A stretch of DNA of 64,000 nt from Chaetoceros tenuissimus (Eukaryota; Bacillariophyta; Thalassiosirophyceae; Chaetocerotales; Chaetocerotaceae), in contig BLLK01000054.1 in NCBI GenBank assembly GCA_021927905.1, forward strand, positions 1 to 64,000, in the 5' to 3' direction. The notes beneath the pieces were generated by a model that ran no database searches, was not told where the DNA came from, and worked only from the letters and a program-made list of their open reading frames with translations. Within the stretch, counting starts at the first letter, position 1. Each line of letters starts with the position of its first letter. Both the position numbers and the translations under genes were made by a program. Positions 1 through 49,407 of the stretch are shown here, piece after piece.

Positions 1-128
1 ATACATCATTATAATGGTGATACCAATTTAATTCAGCAATTCTGGGACATATACTTTATTCTTGTACATTACAAGCTCAACTCCATTGAGTTTATCCAGT
101 TTATATTCAGAGTCCTTTTCATTAGACA

Positions 129-3100
129 GCTTTCCTAAATGAAACTCCCTTGTCCATACAGAAATTCCGGTCATACTCCCTCTTTAACAACCAACCATTT
201 CCCACATGGAATGCATCTCCAAATGACTCCCTTCGCCACTTCCAGTCATCCCATCGCCTATCAATCGGCACCGTCAATTCCAACACATGCCCTATACAAA
301 GAATCTTTCGCAGATATTCGTCACCTCTCCTATTTTCTTCTGATTCCACTTATAACCACCAATACCATCATACCGTTGCTGCTAGCATCCTCATGCACCT
401 TGATACAAGTCTCACCGAGCATCCTCTAAGCATTCCACCCAAACCTGTCTTACTTCGAAATCATATCCTTGCCAAGACCTATGGAACGGCTCATACTGAC
501 AACAACATGGGAGAATCCCAGGCGCTTACCATGTCTCTTAATACAAGTCCTCTTCAGGCACCAGTTATCTTCCTTCTAGACTCAAAAGTTGTCCTGCTAC
601 AGGTCTTCCTATACTTTCACCCGCAGTCGCAGACCATAAGACATCATCTCCTTAAGCATATGCACACTACATCCATACATCATTACTCGGAACTTAGCCA
701 AGCCCTGCAGCAGCACTGGCCCGATCCTACCAGTCGACCAGCACAGGCAACATACTCCGATCAAATTCCTATCTCAGTCCAGACTCAATTCGAGGACCTC
801 CTCACAACGCTTGCTCAGCAAATAGGAAATAACACCATAGCAACCCTCAATCAGGACTCAGCAACAACCCCTGAGGAGACACAAGACTCGACATACACTA
901 ATTCTACAATAGGCCTGCGCATAGGACATCATCTTTTCCTTCACATACATTCGCACCAGCTCACCAACTTTGGTAGGATCCGTACCAAAACTATCGACGG
1001 AGTTCAAGTTAAAATTACACCACGCCCTAATCTGGCCCTAGCATTGGCTAACACTTGGGCAGATAGAGCAGCATCAAGGATGGCCCAGACGCTACTTGAG
1101 GCACTTCCACACTTCCTTCTCGCAGACATCTCTCATCCGCCGATGCAAACTCTTCAATACATCTTTCAGCACAGGGCGTGACTGGTCAACACTGACATCA
1201 CACAATATATACTAAATCAATTCACGAGTCACAACTACAAGCTTGCCATCGAGAATCCGGCGCAATGGTTCCTTCGCTTCTGTCCATACTTCTCTGATCC
1301 CCTTAATACATTTCAAAACTCCAAAACTCTCAGAAACATAGCGCAAGAGAAGGCACATTCCCACCAGCGAATGATCCACATTTTTGACGACTACAGAAAA
1401 TGCTTCCAGCTCTCCTGTCATCCAAATGAAACCATGCCAAAAACAAAAATCACTACCACAATGCTATCTTGTCCCTTCTGCCCAGATTCCACAATTCCAG
1501 CTTCCACAGCTCACTTCCACCTTGCATGTACACATGGCACAATCTCGAATAAACGTCGAACTCTCCTGGGACCAATCAATGACATCCTTCGTAATCTCGA
1601 CAGCCTCACTAGATACATGATAAATACCATCCAACCTAACCCACAACCCAATAGATTTATCCCAAGATTCTCTCTCTTCCTTCGCGCAGCCATTCAGAAT
1701 GCAACGCTCATTACACCACTGACAGAAAAGGAACAACAGGAATACATTAACACTACCATCTACCCACCATTTGCAGAGCTCGGATATCCTAGTAAGCCGC
1801 ATTGGATTGGAAACCCCACTGTCCATCCACCTCTTGCGCCTACAGATGCTCATTACACGCATCTTATGGGTCCATCCAGTACAAACCCAACTTATCCAGA
1901 TGAACACACTGCCGTCATTGCCTTACTCGGACTACTCCCAAGGAATACCCATCTTGCAATAGAAGAATACATCCATATGATAACCACTAAATACACTCAA
2001 GCCATCTGCATTCATCAGACAGCACAGGAAAGACTGGATGCGAAGCCTCTCACAATTGCGGAAGTATATGTGCATCTACAATCAACAGAGGGCGCCTCTG
2101 CCGAACAAGATACACTATACCATCTCATACAGCCTTCCGATGCAAGCACACTATCAGCATATTGCATCAAAATGTACCATCGACTACTCCAGCAGCTTCA
2201 AACTAAAACAGAAAAACTCCAAAGCAAAATACAGAGTGTACTCAATGAGTACAAGGACAACCAGATTCAAACATATAAAAAAGCCCAACCTTCAAAAGAA
2301 GAAGAGCCTCCTTCGAAAAAGCCAACACCAGTCCCGAGCAAGAAAAGACCAAAGGCTCCATGCCAGGGAACATGGTGCACGCTCAGACAGTTTGCGGCCA
2401 TGCCATATACAATGACAGGTACAGCATCTAACTGCAGCCAATGTACGCTCATGCAAGAAGCGGTTCAGCTCTCCACTAAAATTATTGCACAACTCATCCC
2501 GAGACCATCGGCCATGGCGCTCATTTCCCAGTATACACCACTAGCACCACACCAAATGCAACTCCATACTCTAGCCAATAATACGGCGGCAAGCCCAGTA
2601 CCACTGGATGAAATCAGAGATATCATCTGCAATTCCATTCCTACCACCATCATTAACCAAATATCACCAAGGCTGAACTTCCTTCACCCGGACGATGCGC
2701 ACTATAGTGACCCAGATCACTCCCTCCAGGACTTAGTTCTCCAACATGTGGCATATGCGACCCTAATATCTACTTCCCCAGCTCTCACACATGAATTTCC
2801 ATCTCTCCGTAATCCATATCACATCCATCGGCTACTTACAAGAGCAACAACATTCTGCAAGTGCACAGAATCGGCTCCAGTTGTCCACAATAATGCCAAT
2901 ATATGCCGACAATGCTCGTCCCTCATCAAAAACAATCATCGTCCGACAGATGTCTCCCAAGCGACATACACCACCTGTATTTCCTGTGATCAAGTCATCC
3001 ACGATATTAAATATCCAAATATGCCCTGTGAATCATGCTTCCTTACAGCAATCATCATCCAAAATAATCCAGCACAAACATGGTATACACTCACGTATCG

Positions 3101-4123
3101 GACACCACCCAACATGAGTACAGTTGTACATACTACTCCATACAGCTACATTAGTCACCTCCTTCCGTCCACGGTGCACCATCAAGCTATTCCTCCAGAA
3201 GAAATATTCCAACCAAGACAGGAGCCTCTTCTACGAGAGCAATACCCTTTCACTGAAGATCCTGACTTTCACTTTCAGGAACTCCTGGAAGATGTACCAT
3301 TCACTGAGCTCAAGCCATTCCCACCGCGACCGCAACCAATGGAATTCCCTGATCAATATGCGGAAGCTACATCACATAATATAGTTACCAAAGTCCATCA
3401 AACATTCCATCCCAACAAATTTCCATCTCTAAGGCCACTGTACCTCACATACAGTCACCCGACCTTCCCATATTTCGACGGTATCCAAGAACCTAAGTTT
3501 GGACACTATCCAGAGGCATATATTGACACAAATCTTCCAAATCTTGCAAAAGCACTTCCATATATCCAAATTCGGCAAGTCCCTATAACACAAGCTCATC
3601 CGCTTCCGACAAAACAACTCCAACTAACAACCGACTATCAAACCATCATAACATGGAGCTTTACGGATCACCCTAAAAGGAACCCCAACCAAAGACTTGG
3701 CCCTATACCAGAATCATTCATCTCCATCCACCGTTCCAATATCGCATGTACTTTCATGCCGGATCACAGATTGAGGAACTGCCCAAATACCACTTTCCAC
3801 AACATACCATCCCTGTACACTATATCCGCCTGCGCCCGAAGGAGACACCAACACAGCATGTTCTAGCAGCAATCTACCTCACAGCAACAATTCCGCCACA
3901 ATGCCTCAGCTACAACACAATACAAGACTTCGGTATTCTAAATCCAAACAGAATGACCAAAATATTCAGAGAAATGACATATCTTCACGCAATCCTCCAT
4001 GACGACTCCTACCTAGACTCAATGCAACACATCACCTCACCCTGGACACTCACCTATAATAAACCAAAACTGTACAACTCCATCACAAGAAAATATCAAT
4101 ACATTGGTGAAGGAATAGAGTAG
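129..4123 (+). pseudogene. retrotransposon polyprotein: RT tail, RNase H, zinc finger, Cys-rich C-terminus
   Basis: One frame runs from about 129 to 3866 and is broken only by TGA at 1179-1181. A frameshift near 3720-3750 moves coding to the frame that ends at 4123. RNase H is suggested by a Glu in GESQAL (about 513), an Asp in LLDSKVVL (about 579) and an Asp in NTWADRAA (about 1062), which match the spacing and context of the family's E, D and D. Next comes a finger of pattern C-x2-C-x12-H-x4-H (about 1470-1537). A long region follows with PCQGTWC and several C-x2-C pairs around 2340-3070. Copy 2 aligns throughout, so the arrangement is real. I recognise no endonuclease; the Cys-rich part could contain one or bind nucleic acid. 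As it stands it cannot make the whole protein. Confidence 0.75.
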
Positions 4124-4333
4124 GTACATCATAAAAACCCTAGTGGCTTTCTGCGAAAGTCACTAGGACACACCGAGTTACAGGGAGGAGAAATCCGTCT
4201 GTAACTAGGGTCACAGTATAAATAATGTGATCTCGGTCCCGCAGCGTCCTATGTTAACACCTTTTATCGCTGCCTGAAATATCGGCGTGATAGCGGGAAG
4301 GGTGGTAGTATGTCCAAGGTAAACTAGAAAGAT
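4124..4333 (+). promoter_or_regulatory. structured 3' UTR of retrotransposon copy 1
   Basis: Three stems can be drawn. Hairpin I is 4139-4167 (CCTAGTG..CTTTC pairs with GAAAG..CACTAGG around a TGC loop). Hairpin II is 4176-4206 (AGTTACAG with CTGTAACT). Stem III pairs GCAGCG (4241-4246) with CGCTGC (4268-4273). Copy 2 has the same order of stems at 42429-42665 with different bases that still pair. The UTR ends with TAAACTAGAAAGATA (4320-4334), also present in copy 2, just before the repeat tail. By analogy with other non-LTR elements, this may be the site the RT recognises on its own RNA (inference). Confidence 0.65.
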
Positions 4334-4380
4334 AACCTAAACCTAAACCTAAACCTAAACCTAAACCTAAACCTAAACCT
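4334..4380 (+). repeat. (CCTAAA)n telomere-like tail of copy 1
   Basis: About 7.8 uninterrupted copies of CCTAAA (TTTAGG on the other strand). It starts directly after the conserved 3' UTR end and stops where Ty3/gypsy pol sequence begins. It is one base rearranged from the TTAGGG-type repeat present at 21264-21285. It is either a telomere-type tract or an element-specific 3' microsatellite tail. Confidence 0.9.
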
Positions 4381-4480
4381 CATCTAAAAGTTTCTTCAAA
4401 GTAGAATTCCTCTTCTTCAATTCCTTTTGTTGTTCTTCACAGAGTAGCTTCTTCTCCAATGGGAAATTAGCTTGAATACT

Positions 4481-4804
4481 TCATACTTGTCTGTTTGAAA
4501 ATAATTCTTTTACTTTAGTGTTGGTGGATTCAATCTTGTCCTCCTCAACATTGTTGCTTTTCAAGCCACTAAGCGTATCAGCTACAATGTTGTCAACACT
4601 GGATATTATATTAGGTCCAAACTCTTCAAGTAGAAGTCTCCATCGCATTACTCTTTGAGATTCTCTCAAGGTTGCTTCGTAAACTAAGTTTTTATGATCA
4701 CTATAGACATTTATCTCATATCCAAATAAAATATTGCAAAATTGCTGAAAACTTTCAACAATAGAGAGAAGTTCTTTCTGATAGTCTTCGACAGAAGAAG
4801 GCAA
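4481..4804 (-). pseudogene. Ty3/gypsy RNase H fragment
   Basis: A 107-residue open stretch contains YSDHKNLVY and VMRWRLLLEEF, the usual Ty3/gypsy RNase H context in which the Asp of SDH is catalytic and the following segment leads to the end of the domain. It lies just downstream, in minus-strand order, of the RT and is separated from it by frame breaks. The frame continues past its stop as a charged linker (QANFPLEKKLL), which normally precedes the integrase. The integrase itself is absent. Confidence 0.7.
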
Positions 4805-4923
4805 TAGGCTTTCCTTCTTGACTGACTACAGCACCAAGCTGCTTATCAGATGTATCTGTATGTATGTCAAAGGGCTTACTCCAATCAGGGTAAGTGAGAA
4901 AGATTTCTTCTGTCACCATTTGT

Positions 4924-5640
4924 TTAAGTTTCATCCATTTCTTCTGTCCAAGTTATTTTCATTTTACCTTTCTTGCCAGCTGCAGCATCGATGAGTGGCA
5001 ATAGGATATGAGATCTTCTTTTCCACATATCTCTATAAAATTGTATCATGCCAATAAGAGATTTCATCTCTTTTGCAGTTCTTGGTTTATGAAGATCAAT
5101 GATCCCATGTACTTTCTTTGGATCAGGTCTTAAAATCCTTCTTTTGATATGATATAGCCTAGGTATGGAATTTCTTGAACACCAAAGCTGCATTTTGGAG
5201 CATTGACTTTCAGTCCAGCTGCTTGAAATCTTTGGAAGATCTCTTCCAATTGTTGTAAATGCTCATCAAAACTGCCAGTTCCAATGCATAGAATATCATC
5301 TATGTAAGTACGAACACCTTTAATGTCACCAATCAAGTCATAAATCTTTGACTGAAATACATCACCTGAGACAACCATTCCCATAGGTAAGCAAGTATAT
5401 CTGAATTTACCCAATTCAGTTACAATAGTAGTAATATCTTTACTACATTCCGCAAGTGGGATTGTATAATATCCCATATTGAGATCCAATGCTGAGGCAA
5501 ACGTGAATCCTTCCAGTTGTTGTAATGTATCTGCAATTCTTGGGATTGGAAAAGGCTTCCAAACTACCTGTCCCTTAACCTTCTGAAAATCTGTCACGAA
5601 TCTAATTGTTCCCTTTTTCTTTGGAATAATAAATACAGGA
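4924..5640 (-). pseudogene. Ty3/gypsy reverse transcriptase fragment
   Basis: RT core motifs are clear on the minus strand: ALDLNMGYYTIPL (palm, first catalytic Asp), FRYTCLPMGMVVSGDVFQS (template-grip region) and TYIDDILCIG, with the YIDD catalytic pair intact. KCSFGVQEIPYLGYI closes the palm. The rest, with the thumb and connection (LHKPRTAKEMKSLIGMIQFY), is in another frame from 5193 to 4924. A stop and a frame change upstream near 5597-5650 separate it from the protease part. This is Ty3/gypsy rather than copia because of the LPMG...DVFQ and YIDD context. Confidence 0.8.
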
Positions 5641-5706
5641 GTCCCCTATTCTGATTCATGTACTACTTCCAGTACACCTATTTCAACCAATCTTATCAGT
5701 TCCTTT

Positions 5707-6267
5707 TTAAAAAGTTTCTTTGTTTATTTTTGGCACAGGATACCATCTGGAATTTACTAGCTTAGCTCCGTCTTTGAGTTTTATTTTGACTGGATCGGTT
5801 TTCCACCTACCTAACGTTCCATCGAACAATGATTCAAATTTCTTTAGTTTTTTCAGAAGCTTCTGCCTCTGTTCTCTGTTCAAAGATGTAGCATTCTCTA
5901 CAACTTCTTCTAAGTTTGCTTTTTTGTAATTCGCATCTAGATTTTTTGTTACTTGTTCTGTTTCTTTTTTAGTAGCCTTCGGCTCAGCTGATTTTAAAAA
6001 TGTAGCTTGTATTTCTGCTCTTGTTGGGTGAGTATCCTTCCAGATATCACTAAAACTTTTCATTTGGACAACCTTGTCCTCCCATTTTATTGTCTTGTCA
6101 CTAAATCTTATGTCAATATTGAGTTTGGAAAGTATATCGTATCCAACTCCTTCTGGATTTGGGTCGATGTCAAAATCATGTAATATTTTTGTAGCACCAC
6201 CAAATTCATCAAGTGATATGTGAAGAGGAATCTTTGCATTGCATGATAAAGGTCCTGCTCCGGTCAT
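5707..6267 (-). pseudogene. Ty3/gypsy protease-to-RT linker region
   Basis: An open 186-residue stretch sits between the gag and RT parts. Its start (GGATKILHDFDIDPNPEGVGYDILSKLNIDI) resembles the second half of a retroviral-type aspartic protease domain. The DTG active-site half is not visible and would lie in the broken sequence around 6270-6650. The C-terminal half, rich in Lys and Glu and ending in NSRWYPVPKINKETF, is the usual approach to the RT, where polyproteins have a conserved PxP segment. I assign it by position and composition; it is not independently diagnostic. Confidence 0.5.
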
Positions 6268-6733
6268 GTATTCTACATTCTGTTTTTCACCAGTTTCTTT
6301 GATGACTATTTATTGATCCAAATGATCGCATAATACAATCATATTTGTTTTTATTTTTCTCCTTTATCTTTTGGATTATAAACAGTCGCCAACCTGACTG
6401 GTGTAGCATCAGCTGGGGGCTCCAACGGATTTAATTTTGATAAGTTATGTCTTCTCAGACGCTTGGAAATAATTCTATCGAATTTATTTGAAAAGGAAAA
6501 CTTATTCAAAGTTTTCTTTATTTTAAGTTGTTTCCTACTTTTACCAACCTTCTTGGCTCGACGGATCTTGCCCAGTATCTCTAAGGTGAAGTTCTCTTCA
6601 GTTTTATTCTCATCCGTTTGGTGTTATCAATGGTTACCGTCAGAGTCGCTATAATAGCTTTTCATTTTCATGATGGTTTTCTTCATCACCTAAATTAGGG
6701 AGTTCATCTCTTTCTTCATCTCCTGATGTTCTT

Positions 6734-7889
6734 TCATCTCTTTTTCCATGTCATTGCACTCATTGAACTTCTTGTCCTTGATGGTGCAGTCATCAGTGTT
6801 AAGGTTTTAATAGTATCTTTTACTGACATCCTTGCACCATTTGCAAAACTTTTTCTTGCGATTGTTGCTGTTGTTGCAATAATTGCGTCTTCCACGCTGG
6901 TTGCTGTTATCTTGAGAGTTCTCTCTCTTTCTTTTCTTCTCTTGTTTGTGCTCTTTCTGAGCTTTCTTGATCTTCTTTTCTGCTTGGTCCTTTCCTTCAA
7001 AGTTGACCATTGCTTGAATGCAGGTGGCATTGTCCATATGACGCCAGTCCTAGGCATGATTGTTTCCAATGTCCTTTTGGTTTCCCCTCTTGTAACCCAT
7101 AGAAGATTGTTTGTCTGATAGCATCGTTGTCGACGGGTCTATCATGCTTCTTCCAGTCTGCATCAGTGAAGTCTACAGCTCCCTTTTTGCTTAGAGGTTG
7201 AATCATCTTTAGCCTTTCAGCGAAAAGCTTCATTTCATGGTCAAGTACTTTGACGTTCATGTCATACGGCTTCACAATCTGGTACATGAAATAGCGAAAG
7301 TGCTTCTCAAACGCTTGACCATGGTGATGCCAGAGCTGTTGCCCACTATCCACATAATGGCATGCTCGTAATCTTGGAGTGCTCTCTTCTCAGCTTCTTC
7401 AATCTTTTTTGTGTTCTGGCTGTGTTGAGCCTTGAGGTATCTCAACCCTTGCACATTAGAGGTAATCCAGTTCTCAAACGTTTCTTCATTCTTCAAGGCT
7501 TTTTGAGACAGGTCATTGTCTAGCTCGGGGTCCAAGTCCTTCAGGAAGATCATTCTAGCTGCCTCCATCGCATCCACAAAAGAGTTAATCGCCAAGGAAT
7601 GCAGGAACCTTTGAATTGAGTTGAGTCTGTTGCTGAGAGACTTGTTATCAGTCCAACCTCTCATGTTGGAGGCAAACTGCACTCCAGTACTATTGAGGCT
7701 ATCCACTCTTGGGACCTCTACTTTGAGACTGTTCTCGCCTCCTGACTTCTTTTTGGGGTCCTTCTTGACCTCTACTTCCACTGTAGGAATCTCGTCCTCA
7801 ATTTCAATTTTGAGGGGAATCAATCTCATTTGGAGATCAATCCCAGCCTCTCTTTCGCCTGTGTGCTTAGCAGCTTTTGCTAGTTTCAT
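6734..7889 (-). pseudogene. Ty3/gypsy gag-like region
   Basis: The minus strand from 7889 encodes about 205 residues (MKLAKAAKHTGEREAG...) including an alpha-helical stretch with KALKNEETFENWITSNVQG and HAIMWIVGNS. After a frame change it continues (HGQAFEKHFRYFMYQIV, DNDAIRQTIFYG). The end near 6807-6860 is basic and Asn-rich with FCKWCKDV, a probable remnant of a zinc knuckle. It lies just upstream of pro-pol in the right orientation, so gag is the natural reading, but sequence similarity to known gag is not obvious by eye. Confidence 0.5.
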
Positions 7890-8114
7890 TGTAGTTGTAT
7901 TTTTAGTTGTAGTTGGTTTGGATGACTTTCCACTGGAATGTTTTATAACACTGCCTTTGATATCTAGTGGTATGTAAATTGTGATTAGTTTAGCTATTTA
8001 AAAAGAGTCCATTGGCTTCTTGACATGAAGCACAGCGCTTCTCAAAAAGATATACTTCAACAAGACTCTATTGCTGAAGGGGCTATAGTAGCATTGGGAT
8101 TGTGGCATGAAAGG

Positions 8115-8372
8115 TCATTTAGCCGATATACAAATATTCATATCAGACCATCTATGGCAATGTCTAAAATTGCCAAGGTATTCGATTTCATCTTGACAGA
8201 AGAAGCATACATTTGAGTCAAGGATTCTCAAGTAGGATAAACTTTTTTCTAGCTCCTCCAGATGCTTCTCATATGAACTTACAATCTCAAGGCCAGAGCT
8301 GGTATCAGTGATACAAATGTGGTAGTTCATAGGATTGCATTGTATTGCTTGAACAACACAGTTTGTTTGCAT
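8115..8372 (-). pseudogene. small Ty3/gypsy RT scrap
   Basis: An 85-residue open stretch contains SSYEKHLEELEKSLSYLR and CFFCQDEIEYLG. This is the classic segment after the catalytic loop of a Ty3/gypsy RT (HL..L..VL..L, then KCxF....EYLG). The catalytic YxDD itself would precede it and is not seen. It is a separate insertion or leftover from gypsy-1, since it lies on the gag side of that element. Bases 7990-8115 and 8373-8635 show no gene. Confidence 0.6.
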
Positions 8373-8635
8373 GTGCCAAAATTTACGTTGTTTTAACTAC
8401 TTAATTTCACCCAAACTTGAGGTTTTTACAATGACATTCCTATTGTCATCGGGTTTAATAGGAACTTTGTCATTGAATCCTTGAACCTCTTTCCCATGTC
8501 CAACTGAATTGTAGTTGTAGCTGTTGTTATAATGATAAGAGTGGTGTGTCATTCTGGTCTTATCAACTGGAACACTAAGCTTTGGACTTGATTTATGTAT
8601 ATAGGATAGTATCTACATGTGATTTGTCCTTTAAT

Positions 8636-9486
8636 TTAACTGTTACCATTGGTTGGTTCAATGGCTGCAATGTTTGTGAAGTCATGTGTTGTTGCCATTT
8701 TTTCTGCCAAGCCTTTGGATAGATGGCCAATTTGATTGTGAATGTACATGGTAAATGTGAGCCCGCTCCAATGGCCCATTTTCATGATCATGATGTCATC
8801 TATGCCTGCTAATTTTAGTGTCATTGCTCCGTCTGCTCGTAGAGAGTGCACTCCCACTAGGTCTGGATCAATGCCAGCTTTGTCCAGTCCCAAGATTTTG
8901 ATGCATGTGCGTATCTCGGTAATCATGTCTTTTGGTGTGACTGTTTGCCATTGCTTGGAGGCATCATCCCAGTAATATGAAAGAAGTTGTGACTTGTTGC
9001 CTCTATTGCTCAATAAATGGTGTACCTTTTCATTCAATTCTGCCACTGCATTTACGTTTGCTTTATCAGCTTTGCTGTGATGAATTGTTTGTCCCATCTT
9101 TCCATTTTTCTGGTTGGTGATCTTGAGAGTGGCTTCCTTTCTTGAAAGGACCTTTTTGTCCTTCCAGAAGCCTACATCAGCCACAGTGAACTGCTTGGTA
9201 TGTGTTGCAGCCTTCATTTTTCCTTGTTTTGTTGTGATATCTCGGCGCAGTGTATTCCCCCACACATAGCAAATAAAAGAATGCAACCAAGCACAGTTGA
9301 CCTACTGCCTTTGCCTTTTGGATATTTTGATTCTTTGCCACATTTGTATGCTAATTCAACTACAGATACTGGTACTGCTAATTGTGGTACAGGTGGAGCA
9401 TCCTCTCTTCTCATTCCATCCAACATTTGTTTGAAGGGGAGTGTGTAGTCTTCCCCCTTTTTGAATGGTACTTGTTCTCCAGCCAA
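8636..9486 (-). pseudogene. tyrosine recombinase / phage-integrase-like protein, broken
   Basis: The main open stretch (9286 to 8636, 216 residues) ends with the catalytic block of tyrosine recombinases: HSLRADG (the HxxR box, near residues 146-149), MKMGHWSGLTF (second His/Trp) and MYIHNQI (likely nucleophile Tyr). ITNQKNGKMGQTIHH lies upstream. The preceding part (9486 to 9214) is in a different frame and carries a degenerate FxxLLRVGEYT-like segment, so a frameshift near 9230-9290 breaks the gene. Proteins of this type are numerous in diatom genomes (family knowledge) and are associated with mobile DNA. Coding similarity upstream of 9486 is too weak to define a start. Confidence 0.7.
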
Positions 9487-9691
9487 TCAAAGGGACATTG
9501 AGACTGCTGCAATTTCATCTTGGTCTCTGATAATAGGTAAGTGCAGACAGAGCATGGCACAGAGTTCATGAATCTGCTCTGTAAGTGGAGAACAATCTCA
9601 AGGAGCATTGAACTGTATAGTCCATGGCAGAACTTGGCTGAAAATGTAATTGGTATATTAAAATCCAAGTGGAAGCGGAGAATGGTATTAA

Positions 9692-10514
9692 CAGTGGAGT
9701 CGCGTAAGAATACCTGATTTTTGTGAGTTTTTGCTGCAAAGTGAAAATGCTAATTTCGGCTCCAATCGACGCGCGATAAAGTAGTAATACCTTTCTAAAA
9801 GCTCTTTTTACGCTTGTTTCGAAACTGCAATCCATGAGAGCGCGCAAGCTTTCTGAGTCGAGAAAGTACCCTCTAAAATAGCTCACTTCGTTCATCTCAC
9901 AGTTTGGTTGCAACCATATTTCTCGCCACAAAATGAGTTTACGAACGCGAGAAGTTACAAATAAATTCTTGAAGTTATTGTGTGAATGAATATGTAATTA
10001 GTATAGCCATAGATCAAGAAGAAGTATATCTATCGATTGCCTCTTTGGAGTGATTTTCTTTGATTCTTTCTCGTATGTACGGACTGTACCAACAATGGCA
10101 CAATCTCTGTGAAATCAAGTGAATTTGAAGTCAATTTTGAATCATGAATCGACCATGTCTTCTATACACACAAATAAATCATTTTGAAGTCAACCTACAA
10201 CAAATATAACTACATAAATAATTAGAAAACTATTGAAATGAACATTATGTAACTTCTTGCGTTCGTCAACTCATTTTGTAGCGAGAAATATGGTTGCGAC
10301 TCAACACCCAATATTTAAAAAAGTGACGATCTCGTCTTACGAAAAGCTAAATTTCTCAACTCAGAAAACATGCGCGCTCTCGTCGATTACAGTTTTGAAA
10401 CAAGCGTAAAAAGAGCCTTTAGAAAGGTATTACTTTATTATTGCGCTTCGAACGGAGCCGAAATTTGATTTTTCATTTGCAGCACAAAATCGGTATTCTT
10501 ACGCGACTCCACTA
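9692..10514. mobile_element. DNA element with ~270-bp terminal inverted repeats, TTAA flanks
   Basis: The left arm (9692 to about 9962) and right arm (about 10243 to 10514) are imperfect inverted copies. The outermost bases read CAGTGGAGTCGCGTAAGAAT on the left and the complement on the right, with one terminal mismatch. TTAA flanks both ends (9688-9691 and 10515-10518), as expected for a 4-bp target duplication. The ~280-bp centre has no coding potential. It is a non-autonomous, MITE-like element. TTAA duplication suggests a piggyBac-type transposase, but the CAGTG end is more like Tc1/mariner, so superfamily is open. Confidence 0.75.
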
Positions 10515-10599
10515 TTAAGGAATGTTCCTACTAGCTTGTGGGACTTTGGATTTGTCTGGGAGTCTGAGAACTATTCACATACTGCTAAACCTGGAGTTA

Positions 10600-10735
10600 A
10601 AATTTACAACTGAGTAAAAGGAAGTAAACTGTTTTCTTGCTGAAGAAGTGTTCATTCATAACTGAGTGAAAGGAATTGGTATTGCATCCTTCCTAGAGAA
10701 GTATTAATTTACGACTGAGTAAAAGGAAGCAATGC
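10600..10735 (+). repeat. three ~52-bp direct repeats
   Basis: The phrase ACTGAGTAAAAGGAA (middle copy ACTGAGTGAAAGGAA) recurs at 10609, 10661 and 10714, spaced 52-53 bp, with partial similarity (TTTAC.ACTGAG and a Gly/Lys-type GAAGAAGT segment) between repeats. It lies just beyond the TIR element. No function is evident. Confidence 0.6.
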
Positions 10736-21263: not shown

Positions 21264-21285
21264 CCCTAACCCTAACCCTAACCCT
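21264..21285 (+). repeat. interstitial TTAGGG-type telomeric repeat
   Basis: Nearly four CCCTAA units. The tract sits exactly where the recognisable gag relic 2 begins on its right (TCAATGATGAATCTAC), while the left side belongs to another repeat family. A junction sealed with telomere repeat is a common mark of break repair with telomere-type addition (inference). Confidence 0.85.
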
Positions 21286-21286
21286 C

Positions 21287-22190
21287 AATGATGAATCTAC
21301 AACTCTTCCAGAGATAAAGGTGCCCAAATTCACTACAAAAAACTATGATGACTTTATGGCAAAATTCCTTACTGTTGTCTCACATACTAAAGGTGTACAT
21401 GACGTATCTATCAATTATCTTGTTGATGGAAATTTTTAAGATAATCATCTGAGTAGAAAATTGAAACTTAGAGCTTGCTTGTCAAGAAGAGGACTGAAGT
21501 TTCTATCTCCTATTTATTGGAGCAAACATTGCAAAACAGTTTTAGCCCCGTAGACAAGGTTATAATCTCCATCTTGCTTTTGTCAATCACTTTGCAAATG
21601 ATACATACCTTCAGAACAAGGCTGCTAAAGCCGAAAATGATCTGACTAAGTTGAATTACTCTGGAGACAAGCTTTATTTGGAAATGAAAGACCACTATAA
21701 TCACATGACAAATTGTTTCAACAATGTGGCAAATGGTAGTGCCCAATACATACTAAATGATCATCAGAAGATCCAGAGATTCTGTCGAGAATGACACTGC
21801 TACTAGATACCATATTCTGGAAAAGGAGGCTTTTGATAATATCCAATTGATAATATCCAAGGTGTGAAAGACTTCAATGCATATTACAAATTGTTTTCAT
21901 CCAAGCTTCAACAATATCCCTAACCCTAATGTCAAACCTTAAAAGGAAATGGATCCCATACTGACAATAGACATATCAACCAGGTCAATACAGGAGGTAG
22001 AGGAAGATCTGGACATGGTGGGCAATATTGAAGAGGAGGTAGTACTTACCAGAATAATGACCCTTACCACAACCCTCCAGGCCTTTCTTATTTCACAGCA
22101 GGAGCAAGAAACTATCCTCAAGAAATGTTTTCCAAAATTCCAAAATACAAAAGGCTGCTGTACAACAGGTGATGACCAATAATGAATGGA
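21287..22190 (+). pseudogene. copia gag relic 2
   Basis: Similar to gag relic 1 at its start (TTLPEIKVPKFTTKNYDDFM-like, with VSINYLVDG and RRGLKF). Later parts read HFANDTYLQNKAAKAENDL, MKDHYNHMTNCFNNVANG and, near the end, a Gly/Arg-rich segment (NTGGRGRSGHGGQ) followed by ARNYPQEMFSKIPKYKRLLY. That order of helical body, GR-rich tail and short conserved C-terminus is typical of diatom copia gag (family knowledge). Several stops and frame changes, and a small CCCTAA insertion at 21918-21929, break it. The gypsy-2 LTR starts immediately after it. Confidence 0.6.
21918..21929 (+). repeat. two CCCTAA units inside gag relic 2
   Basis: CCCTAACCCTAA lies between TCAACAATAT and TGTCAAACC. It is short enough to be chance, but a longer tract of the same repeat lies 630 bp upstream. 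Confidence 0.5.
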
Positions 22191-33465: not shown

Positions 33466-33983
33466 TCTATCTAGATTCAACTTCATACCAATTCCAAAAG
33501 TACAGAATCTTCCGATTCTAAAAGTGATTGGAATCTCTTGTTGAAGTACAGACATAAGCTCAGCAGGAGTATGGTTGTCCTCAAGGCAAAGAAGTTCATC
33601 AGAGAAATGGTAGAATGCATTCTGGCGATAGTGAATTGGCACATTGAGGCATGGAAGAGAAGGAAGGAATACAGATCTCTTGTCTTTTCCAATGATCACA
33701 TCTTTCATGCCAAAAACTTGAAGGACTTTAGAGATGGAATGGAAGAAAAGGAAGGAATACAGATCTCTTGTCTTTTCCAATGATCACATCTTTCATGCCA
33801 AAAACTTGAAGGACTTTAGAGATGGAATGGAAGAAAAGGAAGGAATACGGATCTCTTGTCTTTTCCAATGATCACATCTTTCATGCCAAAAACTTGAAGG
33901 ACTTTAGAGATGGAACTAGACGAAGGACCAGAAGAAGAACAATCTCTAGAGGCAGAACGGGAAGCAGAGCATTGAGCAGACAT
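33466..33983 (-). pseudogene. gypsy-2 gag, 5' part, broken by an 88-bp triplication
   Basis: The ATG (33983-33981) follows the primer-binding-like site by only about 25 bases. The protein starts MSAQCSASRSASRDCSSSGP, continues ISKVLQVFGMKDVIIGKDKR, and, beyond the repeat, reads LNVPIHYRQNAFYHFSDEL and ELMSVLQQEIPITFRIGRF up to the copia E insertion. An 88-bp unit is present three times (33648-33911). The two extra units add 176 bp and change the frame, so the gene is dead for that reason alone. I see no zinc knuckle in this part. Confidence 0.6.
33648..33911 (+). repeat. three tandem 88-bp units
   Basis: Units start at 33648, 33736 and 33824. The last two are almost identical and the first differs at a few bases (GGCATGGAAGAGAAGG versus GGAATGGAAGAAAAGG). 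They lie within gypsy-2 gag. Confidence 0.95.
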
Positions 33984-39341: not shown

Positions 39342-40677
39342 TTTGCCAAAGAATTGGAGTTTACATACGCCTTGATTTTTGGTAGCACTTTCACATTTCC
39401 GCTTTTCGTGTAGTCCAAAGATCCACCATTGCTGTAAGCTCTAATACCGGCACACACACATATCTTAACCACCTGTTCAAAGTTGAAGAAGGATGAGAAG
39501 GTCGAGCCAGTATCGATAATGATAAGTGTTGGCGAAAGAAAACTCTTGTTTCTTGCGTAAAAAGATAGGAATACTTGGATAAATTGATACTCACGGTTGC
39601 CATCGCCATTATTGGGGCAAACATTACCGAAATGTCCATGTTGGTTACAACAATAGCATTGAATCTGCTCTTAGCACTCCATTCGTACCAGCAACTGGTT
39701 GGCACTGCATGAAGCTTAAGCCACTTCCATTATTCTGAGTATTACCATTCTGTCTGTTGTTGTTGTTTGGACCATTATTTGTGCCTGACCAGTGTTGCAA
39801 CATATGAATCGCTGACAAGAGATCAGTAGGGTACTTATCCTCTGCCAAAAGAAGGCTGTTACTCAAGTATTTCCATATCTCTCCATACCGCTTTGGTTCT
39901 GGGAAGCTCCGTATGGTCTAAGATATCAACATCCGCCTGGTTTACTAGTTCCTGAAGGTTGATGATCCCATTGTAATATTCTCTGGTTGCCTTGTCTGAA
40001 CTTGTACAGATTTTTAATTGAGCAGAATGCAGTGTGAAAATCATTGGATGAAGCTGTTACCCTGTGGACGATCCTCTTGATTGTCTTCAGCAGCCAGATA
40101 CTATCAAAGGCTTCAGCCTTATCCTCATAGTCGTGCTCCGCTCGGATATCAGCGACTAGTGCTTTTGTGCATTGACCAATAATTATCCCCCACAAAGTAG
40201 TCATGTTCGATGTGGTAACATCCATCTTCTTACTAAAGATGGCCATCTGGGACGACTGGTACAGTTTTACCGCTGCCAACTTATCAGCATTATCTGCCTC
40301 CCGCTTCACTTTCTCGACGTCCGTCTCTGTTGCAGTTGCCTCTGCTAATGTGACCAATTTTTCCATACAACGAGTCAAAGTCTGGAGCTCATCGCTCAAG
40401 AAGTTATTTGGGTCCTCAAGTTCCACAATGCCCCTGGCAATTGGTGCTGGTTGTTTGAAATTGCGTAGCACATAATTCTCAAGCTCCTTCAAGAAGTGGG
40501 TAGTGTTCTGGGTCCAAGCTTCCTTGCGAGTCCCTAGTACTGGTAGGCTTGCTTCCTTGCCTTTGAAGTTCCTTAGTGCATTATTGTTGTTCCTGTTCCA
40601 ATCCCTAACCGGGATGCGTGTCGGTGGCTGCCTCTCATCGCCTGATGAAGGAGCTGGAGCTGGTGCTGGTGCTGGTA
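39342..40677 (-). pseudogene. copia A gag and protease start, left duplicate
   Basis: The same segment as 49408-50743; I noticed two base differences (near 40154 and 40161). It encodes most of gag, the zinc knuckle CYCCNQHGHFGNVC (about 39630, C-x2-C-x4-H-x4-C) and the protease start IIDTGSTFSSFF (about 39510). A frameshift near 40050 splits gag. At 40677 the gag text stops in the Ala-Pro repeat and retrotransposon copy 3 begins. On its left it continues into the integrase, so this copy belongs to the 3' half of copia A. Confidence 0.8.
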
Positions 40678-40678
40678 A

Positions 40679-42388
40679 GTGCATGAGCATGCTTGCTGCG
40701 ACTGTGATGTTATTCTAGTGATTTAGTGCTGAGTCTGATGCAAAGAGCAGAGGTGATGAGTATCTATGGAATACTCTTTGGATGATGTCATTGCGAGGTC
40801 TTGATGTACTGAGTGGAAGTCAATGTTGAGATTGGAATTGTCGCAGCGATATATGGGGGGACTTTTCCCAAGTAGGATAGTCTTTGTTATTGAATAGAAG
40901 TCTAGGTTGGAAAGGAGTTGTTGCCAATGGCGTTTCATTGAGGAAAGTTAATGGATCGGTGTATGATTGATGTGTGTCCATTCGGAGTTGGAGGTAGTGA
41001 GAGAGGTGGTTATATTGTGCAGCCGTTCGAATGGTTAAACGTCTGCTGGCTGGAGACATTTCTGGCTGAGTGCGTATGTTTGATCTGATATGGTGTGGAG
41101 AGGCATTCCGAAAATGCCTTAGGATTGTGATATGGTGACCTAGGTCCATGATATAAGTTAGAGATAGTAAGTAGGTGGCTACGATATAGGTCTGATGTAC
41201 TGGAGTATTTTGTGTTGTTTTCATTTAGTAGATTGTTTAATGGCGACAGATTATTCTTTGTTGATGGAGCTGGGTACCCAAATTCACTAGTGGCTGAGTC
41301 TTCTTGGTGCAAGATAGAGATAGCGTTGTTAAGAATTGGGAACTCTGTAGGCTGGAGGAAAATGCCAAGTAGTGCCAATTGATCTATTGCATGTGGAAGT
41401 AGATTCATCGGATTTGATGTCGTGGATGTGATGGTGATTTTATGTAGCATTGCTCGCATTCTTGTTTGGAGAAGACTGGATATTGCTGGATTTGGAGTAT
41501 TCAGGGAGACAAATAGTTCTCTCGCCATTGCTATGGCTAGTTGGATGGTAAGGGAGCCTTTGAAGTTTTGGCCAAGGATCCCTTTTGGAAGGAAGATGTT
41601 GTGAAACGTGTCAGCTGGCAATCAGAGTTTGTAGGCCTTTGTGGCAAATTTATAGAGTGTGATGTGATCATCTTTTATTGCATCCTTGAGACAGTAAGAC
41701 ATTGCTAGTGTGTTGAATCCAAGTGTGGAGGTAACTAGGGTGACAAATTGTGACGTGAAGGTATCTGGGGTGAGGAATCTACTCTGGAAGGATTTACACG
41801 CTACATGCATCTTTGAGAAGTGTTTAGAATAGTTTAGATTCGTGTGTCCGTTCCGATTGCTGTATGTGCCAAATTGTCTCATTAGGGAGGTATCAGAGAG
41901 TGCTGCCATGTTATCAGTCGGAATTCTCTCTTTCCTTACTGTTTTTGTGAGATGATGCCAGGAAATGTAGAAGAATTGCTGAACAGGGGTATCTTTATTG
42001 AGATTGTATATTCATATATGACTTTTCTTAGCATTGATACTGAGTTTAGTGACTATGGAGACAACATTAGACATGTGAACGTCTCTGTCTATGTAATCAT
42101 TCAGAGCTTGGAGTGTTTTAGCAGTGATGTATGCTGATGAATCATTGCAGAAAGAGTGTTTATCAAGAGTTGCTGAGTAATTATATTTTATATCATATGG
42201 ATGTAAAATTTCAGGTGTATGCCCTGGTGGTTGAGAATATGATTGCAGCAGTATTGTCCACAGTGCAGCACTCAGCCACGCAACAGCATTGGCAATGGCA
42301 CATGATAGTGCAGAGCCTTGTCAAATTCCACAGTAGAAAGACGTTTTGACTGGGCCATACGGAATGGTTGTGAGAACTGTGACATTGT
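40679..42388 (-). mobile_element. CCTAAA-tailed retrotransposon, copy 3 (5'- and 3'-truncated)
   Basis: Matches 46329-48038 with a constant offset of 5650 bp; I saw one base difference (near 42250). On the minus strand it starts inside the RT just before the GI-stop-QG segment and ends, without the 3' UTR, at the copia A gag. The (CCTAAA)n tail of copy 2 joins directly to its 5' end. Frames inside read as in copy 2: RT end, MAALSDTSLMRQFGTYSNRN and MPADTFHNIFLPKGILGQNF. The same stops are present as in copy 2, so they predate the duplication. Confidence 0.85.
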
Positions 42389-42428
42389 TTTAGGTTTAGG
42401 TTTAGGTTTAGGTTTAGGTTTAGGTTTA
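42388..42428 (-). repeat. (CCTAAA)n telomere-like tail of copy 2
   Basis: Nearly seven units (TTTAGG on the plus strand) between the 3' end motif of copy 2 and the truncated 5' end of copy 3. Confidence 0.9.
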
Positions 42429-42665
42429 TCTTTCTAGTTTACCTTGAACGTACTATCACTGGTCACGCTATCACACTGATATTTCAGGCAGCGCTATCAG
42501 GTGTTATCACAGCATGCTGCAGGACCGAGATCACATAGGAACTTCCTTTAAAGCGTGATCATGATTACAGATGGAGCTGATCCTCCTATCTGTAACCCGA
42601 TATTTTCCTAGACGCTCTCGCAGGGAGCATCCAGGGGAGGGGATCCTCCTTGAGTGATTTTTTAC
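42429..42665 (-). promoter_or_regulatory. structured 3' UTR of retrotransposon copy 2
   Basis: Hairpin I at 42607-42635 (CCTGGATGCTC pairs with GAGCGTCTAGG), hairpin II at 42563-42597 (GTTACAGAT with ATCTGTAAT, extended by AGGAG/CTCC) and stem III from GCAGC/GCTGC (42487-42520). They correspond to the stems in copy 1 (4124-4333), with base changes on both sides of stems. TAAACTAGAAAGATA lies at 42427-42441 next to the tail, as in copy 1. The block TGATCTCGGTCC and CGCTGCCTGAAATATC is also conserved. Confidence 0.7.
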
Positions 42666-45600
42666 CTAATCTATTCCATCGCCAATACATTGATATTGTT
42701 TTGTATTAGTATTTGTCATTGTGGGTGCATTGTATGAAAGTGTCCATGGTGATGTGATATATTGCATTGAGTCTAGGTAGTTGTCATCGAGGAGAATAGC
42801 TTGGAGGTACGAAATTTTCCATATTTGATGGTTTGAGTATTTCAAAGTCTTGGGCAGTTGTGTAATTCATACATTGGGGTGGAATTGTTGCTGTGAGATA
42901 AATAGCTGCTAGTACATGGAGCGTAGGAGTCTCTTGCGGCTTGAGTGAGAGATAGTGCATTGGAATAGTAGTGTGTGGAAGGTCTGCTGCGGGTAGATCG
43001 TCTACCTGTGGTCCTGGGTGAAAGTACATGTGATATTGGAATGGTGATGATAATGTCTCTGGTGTAGGTTCCAGTCTCTGGTTTGGGTCTGTATTAGGGT
43101 GATCTCAGAAGCTCCATGATATGATAGTTTGGTAGTCTGTGGTTGTTTGTAGTCTTCTTGTTGGAAGCGGATGGACCTGGTCGATAGGGACTCGGTGAAT
43201 TTTGATATATGGAAGTGCCTTTGCTAGGTTGGGAAGATTTGTGTCGATATAGGCTTCTGGGTAATGTCCATATGTCGGTTGTTGGATGTCTTCGAAGAAG
43301 GGAAAAGTGGGGTGTTTGTAGGTGAGATACACCTCCTTTCCATGGGGAAATTTTCTTGGATGGAATGTTTTATGTATTTTGGTGACAACATTAGGTGTGG
43401 CACGGGCTGGTATTGTGTATTGACTTGGGAATTGCATCAGAATGGGTCTCAGAGGGAATGGTTTGAACTCAGTGAATGGAGCATCTTCATCAAGTTCTTG
43501 GAAGTGGAAGTCTGGGTCTTCAGTAAATGGATATTGTTCCTTTAGGAGTGGTTGAAGTCTTGGTTGGAATATGTCTTCTGGAGGGATTACTCGATGATGG
43601 ACCTTTGAGGGTATACTATTTTTGATGTAGCTGTACAGCGTGGGATTACAGTTGGGAGTTGTTCTATGCGTGAGGGTGAACCATACACTTGCTGGGTTAT
43701 TTTGAATGAGAATTGCCGTGAGAAAGCAGTACTCGCAGGGCATATTTGGGTACTTGGTATACTGGAGGGCTCTATCACATGTGATACATGTAGTGTATGT
43801 TATATTAGAGTCGGAGAGGTGACGAAGACTTTTCGGGATGAGGGAGGAACAGGGCTTACAGATGTTAGTGTCATTGTGTTTGACAGGGTCAGATTTGGTG
43901 CACATGCAGAATGTTTTGGCTCTTGTGAGTAACTTATGAATGTGATAGGGATTCCTTATGGATGGGAATTTGTGGGTCATTGAAGGTGAGGTAAGTATGA
44001 GACTGGAATATGCAATGTGTTGCAGGACTAGATCCTGAAGCGGTTGGTCCGGTTCCTCATAGTGGGCATCATCTGGATGTAGAAAGTTTAGTCTTGGCAA
44101 AATTTGGGTAATGGTAGTAGTGGGTATCGTGGTACAGATCAGGGCCCTTATGTCATCCAAGGGAATCGGAGTGGCTGCTGTATTGTTAGCCATGGTATGA
44201 AGTTCCATCTGATGAGGCGCAAGTGGTGTGTATTGGGAGATCATCGCCATGGCAGATGGTCTAGGTATGATTTGAGCAAGAATCTGGGTTGAGAGTTTAA
44301 CTGCTTGTTGCATAGTATCGCAATGTATGCAGGTGGTGGATGTTGTAGTCATAGTGTATGGCATTGCTGCAAATTGTTTGAGAGCACACCACGTTCCTGG
44401 ACATGGTATCCTTGGTCTTTTCTTGCTTGGAGTTTGTTTAGGTTTCTGCAAGGGCATGGTCGTCTCTGGAGGAGGTAGTGATGCCTTGTACTTGGAGATT
44501 TTGTCATCCTTGTATGTATTTAGGACACTTTGTATACGCTCTTGAAGTTTTTAAGCTTCATTTTGGAGCTGTGCTAGGAGCCGATGGTAGAGCTGTGTGC
44601 AGAATTTTGAAAGTTGTTCCGTCTTTTTCGATGGGAGCATGTCGATGATGTGGCAATGCATGTCTGATTGAGGCTGTATTGATTGCAGATGTAAAGAAAC
44701 CTCAGTTAGGTTAATAGGTTTCCCATGTAGTCTCTGTTGTGGTGTTTGCTGCAGACGAATAGCTTGACTGTATTTGGTAGTTATCATATGGATGTATTCT
44801 TCTACTGCGAGATGGGTATTTGTTGGAAGTAGCCCTAGGAGAGCAGTGACTGCAGTATGTTCATCTGGATAGATGGGAGTAGTACTTGATGGTCCTACAA
44901 GATGTGTGTAATGGGCGTTCGTAGGCTTCAGTGGTGGATGGACAGTTGGATTTCCATTCCAATGCGGTTTAGTTGGGTATCCTGTCTCCACAAAAGGCGG
45001 GTAGACAGTGGTAGATATGTAGTCTTGTTGGTCTTCTTCTGTCAGTGGGTAGATCAGCGTTGCGTTTTGAATCGCTGCTCGAAGAAAGAGGGAGAATCTT
45101 GGTATGAACCGTTGGGATTGTTGATTCGGATTTATAGTTTGTGCCATGTATTTTGTGAGATTGTCGAGTTTAGCAAGGGTATCATTTATTGGTTCAAGAA
45201 GTGATTCGATATTTTGCCATGCATGCATACAAGATGATAATGCATTGATGTAGCTGGAAGTGTTGATCCTTCACAGAATGGACAATAGAGCATTTGTGTC
45301 GAGATCTTGGCTGTAGGGACAGTGTCATTTGGATGACAAGCTTGTTGGATGCTCTTCCTGTAGTCGTCGAAGATGAGAAGTAGTCTTTGATGGGAATGAG
45401 CTTTCTCCTGTGCTATGTCCTGAAGTTTATTTGATTTCTGGAATGTGCAGAGGGGATCTGAGAAGAATGGCGAGAATCGGAGGAACCATTGTTTCAGATC
45501 TGCAATGGCAAGTTTGTATGTATGACTCGTAAACTGATTTTGTATATATTGAGTTAAGTCAGTGTTTATAGTTCTTGCTTTATGTTGTAATGTGTATTGA

Positions 45601-46326
45601 AGGATAGTAATTGGAGGTTGTGGTATATCTTGCTGAAAGAAGAAAGACAGTAAGTCAATAAGTGCTTGAGCCATTCTGGAGGCTGCTCTATCAGCCCATG
45701 TGTTTGCCAATGCTAGGGTCAGGTTTGGGTGTGGTTGGAGTTGGATTGTTCCTTCCTTGGTTTCCTTGGTGCGCAGCCGTCCATAATTTTTAAGTTGATG
45801 AGAGTTTATATGAAGAAAGAAATGATTGGACATGTTCTTTTGGAGGCGCAGAGTCATCAGGCTCAAGCGGTGGAATTATTTATCCTGATTTAGGTCCATG
45901 ATGGAGGTGATGCCTACTTGTTGGGAGAGCAGCTGGACTGTTTCCTCAAATTGGTGAGGGACAAGCTCAGGGTAAGTAGCTCTTGTAGGACGAGTAGTGG
46001 GGTCTGGCCAGTGATGCTGAAGAGCCTCACATAGTTCAGAATAGTGATGAATGGATGTAGTGTGAACATGTTTGCGCAGATGATTGCATATAGTCTGCGA
46101 GTGTGGGTGAAAGTATAGAAATATTTGGAGGAGTACGACCCTCGAGTCAATGAGAAAAATTGCAGGGGCTCAAAGAGGGCAAGTGTTCAGTGATATCGTT
46201 AGTGCTTGGGATTCGCCCATATTGTTATTGGTGTTGGCTGTACCATACGTCTTTGCAAGTACATGGTTACGGAGCAAGATTGGCTTCGGTGGAATGGTAA
46301 GGGGATGCTGCGACAAATTCGTGTCA
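42666..46326 (-). pseudogene. copy 2 polyprotein, C-terminal half (RNase H, finger, Cys-rich)
   Basis: Frames in order: about 46320-45870 (DSRVVLLQIFLYFHP, RNase H Asp), 45866-45186 (LANTWADRAASRMAQ, RNase H end; then CPFCEGSTLPATSMHYHLVC, finger), 45228-44551, 44457-43105 (PCPGTWCALKQFAAMPYTM; FCMCTKSDPVKHND; TTCITCD; MPCEYCFL) and 43029 onward, ending GDGID at 42666. It aligns with copy 1 throughout, about 75% identical in the PC.GTWC region. Breaks include TAA near 45875, frameshifts near 45200 and 42820, and a TGA after ISWSF (43105) where copy 1 has Thr. The Cys-rich region has at least four C-x-C or C-x2-C pairs conserved in both copies. Confidence 0.75.
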
Positions 46327-49221
46327 AGGTGCATGAGCATGCTTGCTGCGACTGTGATGTTATTCTAGTGATTTAGTGCTGAGTCTGATGCAAAGAGCAG
46401 AGGTGATGAGTATCTATGGAATACTCTTTGGATGATGTCATTGCGAGGTCTTGATGTACTGAGTGGAAGTCAATGTTGAGATTGGAATTGTCGCAGCGAT
46501 ATATGGGGGGACTTTTCCCAAGTAGGATAGTCTTTGTTATTGAATAGAAGTCTAGGTTGGAAAGGAGTTGTTGCCAATGGCGTTTCATTGAGGAAAGTTA
46601 ATGGATCGGTGTATGATTGATGTGTGTCCATTCGGAGTTGGAGGTAGTGAGAGAGGTGGTTATATTGTGCAGCCGTTCGAATGGTTAAACGTCTGCTGGC
46701 TGGAGACATTTCTGGCTGAGTGCGTATGTTTGATCTGATATGGTGTGGAGAGGCATTCCGAAAATGCCTTAGGATTGTGATATGGTGACCTAGGTCCATG
46801 ATATAAGTTAGAGATAGTAAGTAGGTGGCTACGATATAGGTCTGATGTACTGGAGTATTTTGTGTTGTTTTCATTTAGTAGATTGTTTAATGGCGACAGA
46901 TTATTCTTTGTTGATGGAGCTGGGTACCCAAATTCACTAGTGGCTGAGTCTTCTTGGTGCAAGATAGAGATAGCGTTGTTAAGAATTGGGAACTCTGTAG
47001 GCTGGAGGAAAATGCCAAGTAGTGCCAATTGATCTATTGCATGTGGAAGTAGATTCATCGGATTTGATGTCGTGGATGTGATGGTGATTTTATGTAGCAT
47101 TGCTCGCATTCTTGTTTGGAGAAGACTGGATATTGCTGGATTTGGAGTATTCAGGGAGACAAATAGTTCTCTCGCCATTGCTATGGCTAGTTGGATGGTA
47201 AGGGAGCCTTTGAAGTTTTGGCCAAGGATCCCTTTTGGAAGGAAGATGTTGTGAAACGTGTCAGCTGGCAATCAGAGTTTGTAGGCCTTTGTGGCAAATT
47301 TATAGAGTGTGATGTGATCATCTTTTATTGCATCCTTGAGACAGTAAGACATTGCTAGTGTGTTGAATCCAAGTGTGGAGGTAACTAGGGTGACAAATTG
47401 TGACGTGAAGGTATCTGGGGTGAGGAATCTACTCTGGAAGGATTTACACGCTACATGCATCTTTGAGAAGTGTTTAGAATAGTTTAGATTCGTGTGTCCG
47501 TTCCGATTGCTGTATGTGCCAAATTGTCTCATTAGGGAGGTATCAGAGAGTGCTGCCATGTTATCAGTCGGAATTCTCTCTTTCCTTACTGTTTTTGTGA
47601 GATGATGCCAGGAAATGTAGAAGAATTGCTGAACAGGGGTATCTTTATTGAGATTGTATATTCATATATGACTTTTCTTAGCATTGATACTGAGTTTAGT
47701 GACTATGGAGACAACATTAGACATGTGAACGTCTCTGTCTATGTAATCATTCAGAGCTTGGAGTGTTTTAGCAGTGATGTATGCTGATGAATCATTGCAG
47801 AAAGAGTGTTTATCAAGAGTTGCTGAGTAATTATATTTTATATCATATGGATGTAAAATTTCAGGTGTATGCCCTGGTGGTTGAGAATATGATTGCAGCG
47901 GTATTGTCCACAGTGCAGCACTCAGCCACGCAACAGCATTGGCAATGGCACATGATAGTGCAGAGCCTTGTCAAATTCCACAGTAGAAAGACGTTTTGAC
48001 TGGGCCATACGGAATGGTTGTGAGAACTGTGACATTGTGTAGTGATTCTGCAATCCATTCTATGAACCCTTTAGGTGGGAAGCCCATGAGATGGAACGGG
48101 AGCATTTGTAATTCAGTTGTGATTCTATCAAAGAATTTTTCTTTGTCTTCATCGATCTGGCAGAGGAGGATATCTTCTTCTGGTCTATCTAGTGTATCTT
48201 GGACTGCAAGGAGGTGATTTAGTGTACAGTCATCACAAGAGTGACCTGGTCGGTAGGCTGCAATGGTATCATCGTATATGCCTAGTTTTTCAACTATGGA
48301 CGAGAGGGCTTGGGCAACTATGTAGGAGTCATATGCATGAAGAATGGATATAGGACGTTTATCAGTTGAGTCTGGCTTGTCTATAAGAACTCTACCTGTT
48401 AATTTAAGCTGGGGCGGGAGTAGACGGGTAACCAGGATAATGTTTGCAAGTTGATCCAGTGCTCGCATCCAGCAAGGGTGAAGGCGCGCAAGGACATTAA
48501 GTGTAAAACCATACAAGCGTACTGTAGATGGCGTGTATTTAATTTGCTGTTTCATTGATTTGATTGGATTTGTGTAGACAAGAGTGTCCTGAGATGTAAT
48601 AGAGCATTGTTCAATTCTTGCTTGATACGGCCATTGGACATGTGGTGATTGTGTATTGGCAGCATGTTTTTCATGCAGATGCTTTGTGATTTTTGGAAAG
48701 ACTCCATGTGCCTCGATTATTGCTTCTTGGACTCGCATTGGGAATTCTTCGGCATTGGGATGATACTCCTTAAGATCGGCTCGCGAGAATGTTCTGTCCG
48801 GGTCAAAGATGATGCCACATGGGCCAACGTCATCTGTATCTATGTCTACAAAGTGAAGTGATTTACCAGGAGGTAGATCAGCTTGGTGTTGTTGTGTAGC
48901 TCTTGTGGCTTCTTTCTGTTGCTGTGGGCCTACTGCTGGGACATGTGTTGGCGCCGCTAGTGGATTAGTGTAAACTGGTATTGTAGTGTTAGCAGCAGGT
49001 AATGGATTAGTTTTGTTGTGAATGAGGGGAGCTGGTTTAGACGAATCACCAAATAGGTGATGGAAGTCAATGAAGATGTTGTCAAATTGATTGTTGATAT
49101 ATTTGGTGCATTTTTTTAGAGTGTTTATGTATGTAGTCTTGATTGTTTTTGCAAATGAGATAGTTTTGAGTTTGTCTAGAATGTGTTCTGACTTGGAATA
49201 TTTCGAAATTCGCTTGGACAT
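46327..49221 (-). pseudogene. copy 2 reverse transcriptase half
   Basis: The open frame 49221-47971 (416 residues) carries GRVLIDKPDSTDKRPISIL, AAYRPGHSCDDCTLNHLLAV, CQIDEDKEKFFDRI (motif A, Asp) and VLTTIPYGPVKTSFYCGI, then TGA (47971-47973) in the middle of the GIRQGSALS motif B. Further on, SFCNDSSAYIT (about 47790) occupies the position of motif C, with Asn where the first catalytic Asp is expected, and LSINAKKSH resembles the next motif. Downstream pieces 47559-47272 and 47271-46660 read on after another TGA (KAYKL-stop-LPADTF). These are non-LTR RT motifs. The N-terminus before the first Met (to 49407) is Lys-rich and may also be coding. Confidence 0.8.
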
Positions 49222-49407
49222 TTCTTGACTGTTTTCTTCGTGTGACGTATATAGCCGAGATATTTTTCATGATGATTGAGAAAGACCTCCTCTTTTGTCT
49301 GTAGAGGAGCAGGAGAGTCAAGGGAGCAGATTGGAGGGAGTTTTTTGATGGTGCTTTTAGTTTGTTTGCTTTCTTTTTGTTGAGACTTGCGTTGCTTCTC
49401 ATCTTCT

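Follow-up and report, generated by a model that had tools for sequence, protein, structure and literature searches.

Two tracts of the telomere-like repeat (CCTAAA)n stand out in the 64,000-nucleotide stretch of Chaetoceros tenuissimus DNA analysed here (the window), at 4334-4380 on the plus strand and 42389-42428 on the minus strand. What do these tracts terminate, how did it reach its present sites, and does the repeat tie it to telomeres? Each tract terminates one non-LTR element. A preliminary description had read the two elements, E1 and E2, as diverged copies with a shared end motif followed by (CCTAAA)n, and sequence comparison upholds this: they are 69% identical across 4.1 kb and have the end motif AAACTAGAAAGATA(A)CCTAAA in common. 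Matches to CCTAAACCTAAA number 11, against about 0.02 expected by chance. E1 (1-4380, plus strand) consists of the C-terminal half of the element, from the RNase H motif region onwards, the 3' UTR and the tail at 4334-4380, an (AACCTA)7.8 microsatellite; its ORFs occupy 126-1181 and 1182-3866. It lacks the 5' part because contig C40 (72 kb) begins at window base 1. E2 (42389-49407, minus strand) is 5'-truncated and contains RT, the RNase H motif and a Cys-rich C-terminal region. Its protein matches are interrupted by stop codons; its RT is recognised weakly by Pfam, as an RVT_1 match. The (CCTAAA)6.7 tail of E2 (42389-42428) is preceded by a 3' UTR with a conserved folded core (42429-42668, limits approximate; both on the minus strand). 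Both elements adjoin LTR-retrotransposon DNA, in agreement with the earlier placement of the copies inside LTR retrotransposons. Elsewhere in the window, at 33651-33915, there are three repeats of an 88-bp unit with 98% identity.

Searching the 41-Mb assembly (68 contigs), we find copies that number about 25 and fall into at least five families, so that the proposed single lineage with several diverged families holds. The 3' UTR has 13 matches in the assembly, and copies were also located by RT and C-terminal matches. The copies vary in their 5' truncation and share a common 3' end, and the element itself has no terminal repeats. An intact ORF of 2,279 amino acids is found at C48:0.93M, in a copy that is itself 5'-truncated. 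E1 is 93% identical to this element in protein sequence. The ORF has an RVT_1 match above the Pfam cut-off (E 1.6e-7) and a CPFC...H...C motif. The RNase H residues D-E-D-H-D are invariant in four copies, a motif-level assignment with no Pfam match, and would point to an RNase H activity. The Cys-rich C-terminal region (approximately 890 amino acids) is present in both window copies and 39-68% conserved between families, and has no convincing match in Pfam. Together these data support the RT/RNase H/Cys-rich architecture of the preliminary description, with the RNase H recognised at the level of motifs. For the RNase H and C-terminal regions, AlphaFold gave models with pLDDT values of 38-39, too low for use, and searches of solved structures by sequence gave no relevant relative.

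The window copies are cut before the N-terminal region (E2 by 5' truncation, E1 by the contig end), which is recovered at C32:2.21M. There, residues 36-252 of the ORF match the APE-type endonuclease domain PF03372 (E 2.2e-6; 28 bits against a cut-off of 24.5), and the motifs QE, GDLN, IDHI and SHH are present. This endonuclease shares its reading frame with the stretch that lies ahead of RT in another family, and a 212-amino-acid ORF without known domain lies upstream of it. A search with the endonuclease family PF14529 gave no matches. At the other end of the element, GATAA or ATTAA stands before (CCTAAA)n in every family found, the diverged ones at C14:1.73M, C19 and C48:0.98M among them. 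The conserved fold proposed for the 3' UTR is borne out by a core consensus from nine elements with 23 pairs, five of which show two-sided changes that keep the pair; this covariation lends the putative fold modest support. An Rfam search of the 3' UTR returned no family. From these parts, a full-length element would consist of an APE-type endonuclease, RT, a motif-level RNase H, a long Cys-rich C-terminus, a structured 3' UTR and (CCTAAA)3-8.

An endonuclease N-terminal to RT, a non-LTR RT without LTRs and, as described below, target-site duplications (TSDs), probably left by target-primed reverse transcription (TPRT), in ten of the 13 loci that could be tested place the lineage among the APE-type non-LTR elements. 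I elements carry a 3' microsatellite tail. I-like LINEs share with the diatom lineage this type of tail, the APE endonuclease, RT, RNase H motifs, a CCHC-type Cys motif and one long ORF2-like protein, whereas the Cys-rich extension of approximately 890 amino acids and the kilobase TSDs set the diatom lineage apart. The clade list of Repbase includes Ambal and RTETP (PMC4455052).

How were these elements inserted? By comparing each locus with itself, we find long direct repeats of host DNA that adjoin the insertion on both sides in 10 of the 13 testable loci; the copy on C13, which lies in satellite DNA, and E1, which has no upstream flank, were left out of the testable set. The repeats measure 174 bp (C28), 583 bp (C21), 1090 bp (C48:0.93M), 1139 bp (C19), 1336 bp (E2 in the window), at least 1495 bp as read and about 1807 bp as judged from where the inserted piece starts (C14:1.10M), at least 1500 bp (C14:1.73M), 1832 bp (C58), about 2240 bp (C32) and about 3230 bp (C48:1.74M). 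In each case, one copy stops where the insertion starts and the other starts where the insertion ends. In the window, the upstream copy (49408-50743, minus strand) adjoins the 5' end of E2 and is part of the gag/protease region of a host Copia element; the downstream copy (39342-40677, minus strand) is followed by the remainder of that Copia element. The two are identical at 1334 of 1336 positions (99.85%). Both outer flanks were read at eight loci, the far end at the two C14 loci having been read in part, and they differ at all eight; the repeat therefore ends at the insertion junctions, and the empty site can be reconstructed as flank-repeat-flank. Repeats of different loci show no cross-matches, which rules out that LTRs were taken for TSDs. 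We accordingly read the flanking repeats, on their geometry, as TSDs of kilobase scale (about 0.2-3.2 kb). The insertions at C62, C48:0.98M and C32:0.57M have no long flanking repeat, so long TSDs are not universal. Inspection by eye of target sites at the first nick revealed no evident consensus. The continuation of the tail overlaps the start of the TSD by 1-3 nucleotides in eight of nine loci, a weak signal, since about half of it is expected from the way in which the TSD edge is defined; comparable 5' junctions overlap by 0-1 nucleotide.

Some of these insertions are chained. Between the tail of E2 and the downstream target repeat lies an extra internal element fragment (40679-42388, minus strand) that corresponds to 46329-48038 with 99.94% identity over 1,710 bp. 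In the direction of cDNA synthesis, the insertion starts at the target with an internal fragment, from which synthesis would have jumped to a CCTAAA tail to continue into E2. At C14:1.10M, three pieces from two element families lie inside one repeat pair, and two of them are joined at a tail. These chained cDNAs fit template jumping by the RT, with stepwise insertion as an alternative. End-to-end template jumping is the subject of work on the R2 RT that is cited in PMC2718515. Chains consistent with a jump to the 3' end of a new template are common to R2 and the diatom lineage, while the diatom chains are genomic insertions, in some of which the jump would have led to an internal position or to another family. 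A further arrangement is seen at C48:1742000-1760528, where two near-identical element copies with the same 5' start point alternate with three flank copies (TSD-element-TSD-element-TSD, with a repeat unit of 7.64 kb). It is likely that this array arose by unequal recombination between long TSDs.

Taking together the anatomy, the tail, the TSDs and the chained cDNAs, all of which are read from sequence, we infer that this LINE-like lineage inserts by TPRT completed at a distant second-strand break, and give this reading a probability of roughly 0.7. The endonuclease would nick one target strand, and from the 3' OH at the nick the cDNA would be primed on the CCUAAA tail. On reaching the end of its template, the RT might jump to the tail or the interior of another RNA. 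The second target strand would then be primed at a distant break, hundreds to thousands of bases off, rather than at a nearby nick, which would leave TSDs of about 0.2-3.2 kb. A parallel is known for human L1, whose TSDs usually measure 5-30 bp; in cells deficient in XPA, XPC or XPD, and so in nucleotide-excision repair (NER), most measure hundreds of bp and the longest 6.8 kb, and the authors read them as the product of a distant, unrelated second nick (PMC5223499). In both systems, insertions of TPRT type are 5'-truncated and have TSDs between some hundreds of bp and several kb long; the long TSDs of L1 come from mutant host cells, whereas those of the diatom belong to copies of several families that reside in the genome. 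A search of the host for two NER components, ERCC1/Rad10 and Rad4/XPC, found the domains of both. Their presence rules out complete loss of NER as a simple explanation, and the exact human parallel is therefore unsupported. We suggest tentatively that TPRT in this lineage uncouples the first- and second-strand breaks, with kilobase TSDs as its normal product.

The cause might instead reside in the host. By analogy with L1, any APE-type non-LTR element in this genome might gain kilobase TSDs through altered second-strand nicking or flap processing. Such a host effect fits alongside TPRT with a distant second-strand break and differs from it only in the seat of the cause. The spectrum of TSD lengths is similar to the one seen for L1 in cells deficient in XPC or XPD, but the Rad10 and Rad4 domains speak against a host defect, and we regard this account as possible but rather doubtful. 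The genome does contain a second non-LTR lineage, at C48:740601-746000, whose single ORF combines an endonuclease, an RT, an RNase H and a CCHC motif; RT matches identify relatives at C16:2261238 and C35:1628.

It could also be supposed that insertion is coupled to replication: a nascent or gapped 3' end would prime the cDNA, and strand invasion would rejoin it behind the replication fork. The flanking repeat would then be a tandem duplication that encloses the retrocopy, and no staggered double nick would be needed. The wide range of repeat lengths, from 174 to about 3230 bp, is compatible with this, as are the 5' junctions, whose minimal overlap is what is expected of a second end placed by chance; the L1 study itself proposes ends from replication or repair as primers (PMC5223499). 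On the other hand, the lineage has an APE endonuclease, which could make the first nick enzymatically, and nothing points specifically to replication. We consider this route unlikely.

Could the repeats have been created by the assembly, through false duplication of the flanks at heterozygous insertions? An unfinished assembly of 68 contigs can hold such errors, and several repeat pairs (C21, C58, C19 and C14) are 100% identical. Identity within pairs nevertheless extends down to 98.3%, with 32 mismatches in the C48b pair, four in C32, three in C28 and two in the window, and a 10-base gap in C48a. The two copies of a diverged pair have therefore aged separately, which counts against duplication by the assembly. 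Moreover, the ten loci are alike, repeat and insertion end together on both sides at the loci read through, and joins without sequence overlap would require spanning reads. An artefact is thus most improbable.

The component parts of this picture are already known. The TSD of the rotifer element R9 measures 126 bp. A title cited in PMC2861651 terms this natural TSD of a non-LTR element exceptionally long. R9 is specific to rDNA, whereas the diatom TSDs are variable, lie at unrelated sites and are mostly about 5 to 25 times longer. In the open-access literature searched, we found no natural kilobase TSDs of non-LTR elements and no resident lineage in which they predominate, though such a search cannot prove that none exists. 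The making and priming of the second strand by LINE-type elements has long been an open question. A family in nature with TSDs mostly of 0.5-3 kb would separate the second-strand step from the first nick and offer a comparative handle beside the data on L1 in NER-deficient cells. It would also provide a route by which a retrotransposon could duplicate genes or exons at every insertion, and the duplicated flanks would be substrates for precise excision or tandem amplification via recombination. If the two breaks are indeed uncoupled, each insertion would amount to a tandem duplication of host DNA that TSD recombination could reverse or amplify, as the C48 array suggests.

Finally, we return to the tail. 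The preliminary description suspected a link to telomeres and proposed an assembly-wide search for clustering at contig ends. We find the copies spread, most of those located lying deep inside contigs of 0.9-3.8 Mb, and their tails unlike the host telomere repeat, an outcome named in advance as counting against the link, which we abandon. The accompanying caution that the host telomere might not be TTTAGG was well placed: (TTAGGG)n is carried by the start of C13, the end of C27 and the start of C28, whereas the tail unit is TTTAGG. Of the copies located, the one on C13 alone is closer than about 12 kb to an end with telomere repeats. That the elements are telomere-associated, with a tail that pairs with the telomeric overhang, might be argued from the single base that separates TTTAGG from TTAGGG and from the C13 copy, 9-12 kb from a telomeric end, but the TTAGGG telomere, the mostly internal copies and the duplication of internal chromosomal targets, impossible by end-addition, exclude it for practical purposes. 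On the same grounds (tail unit, mostly internal copies, TSDs), the lineage does not belong with elements of the SART/TRAS, HeT-A or Athena type. Many non-LTR elements carry 3' microsatellite tails. With a TTAGGG host telomere and mostly internal copies, the CCTAAA tail is therefore, as far as sequence can tell, a 3' microsatellite and no telomere-derived feature. Positions 1-12300 of C13 contain a telomeric CCCTAA array and arrays of an approximately 330-bp satellite, and one element copy lies within the satellite arrays. Several interstitial TTAGGG arrays are found on C15, C36, C39 and C55, at distances from the contig ends of between a few and tens of kb, and recur within a contig. The window contains short interstitial CCCTAA tracts at 21264-21286 and 21917-21929, within retroelement-like sequence; the former is bordered by ATTCATCATTTG and CAATGATGAATC, which form an imperfect inverted pair. 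The assembly also contains 11 strong matches to silicon-transporter genes, which mark the host as a diatom, and at C17:442278-446357 three silicon-transporter domains follow one another on the same strand, with two stops in the third.
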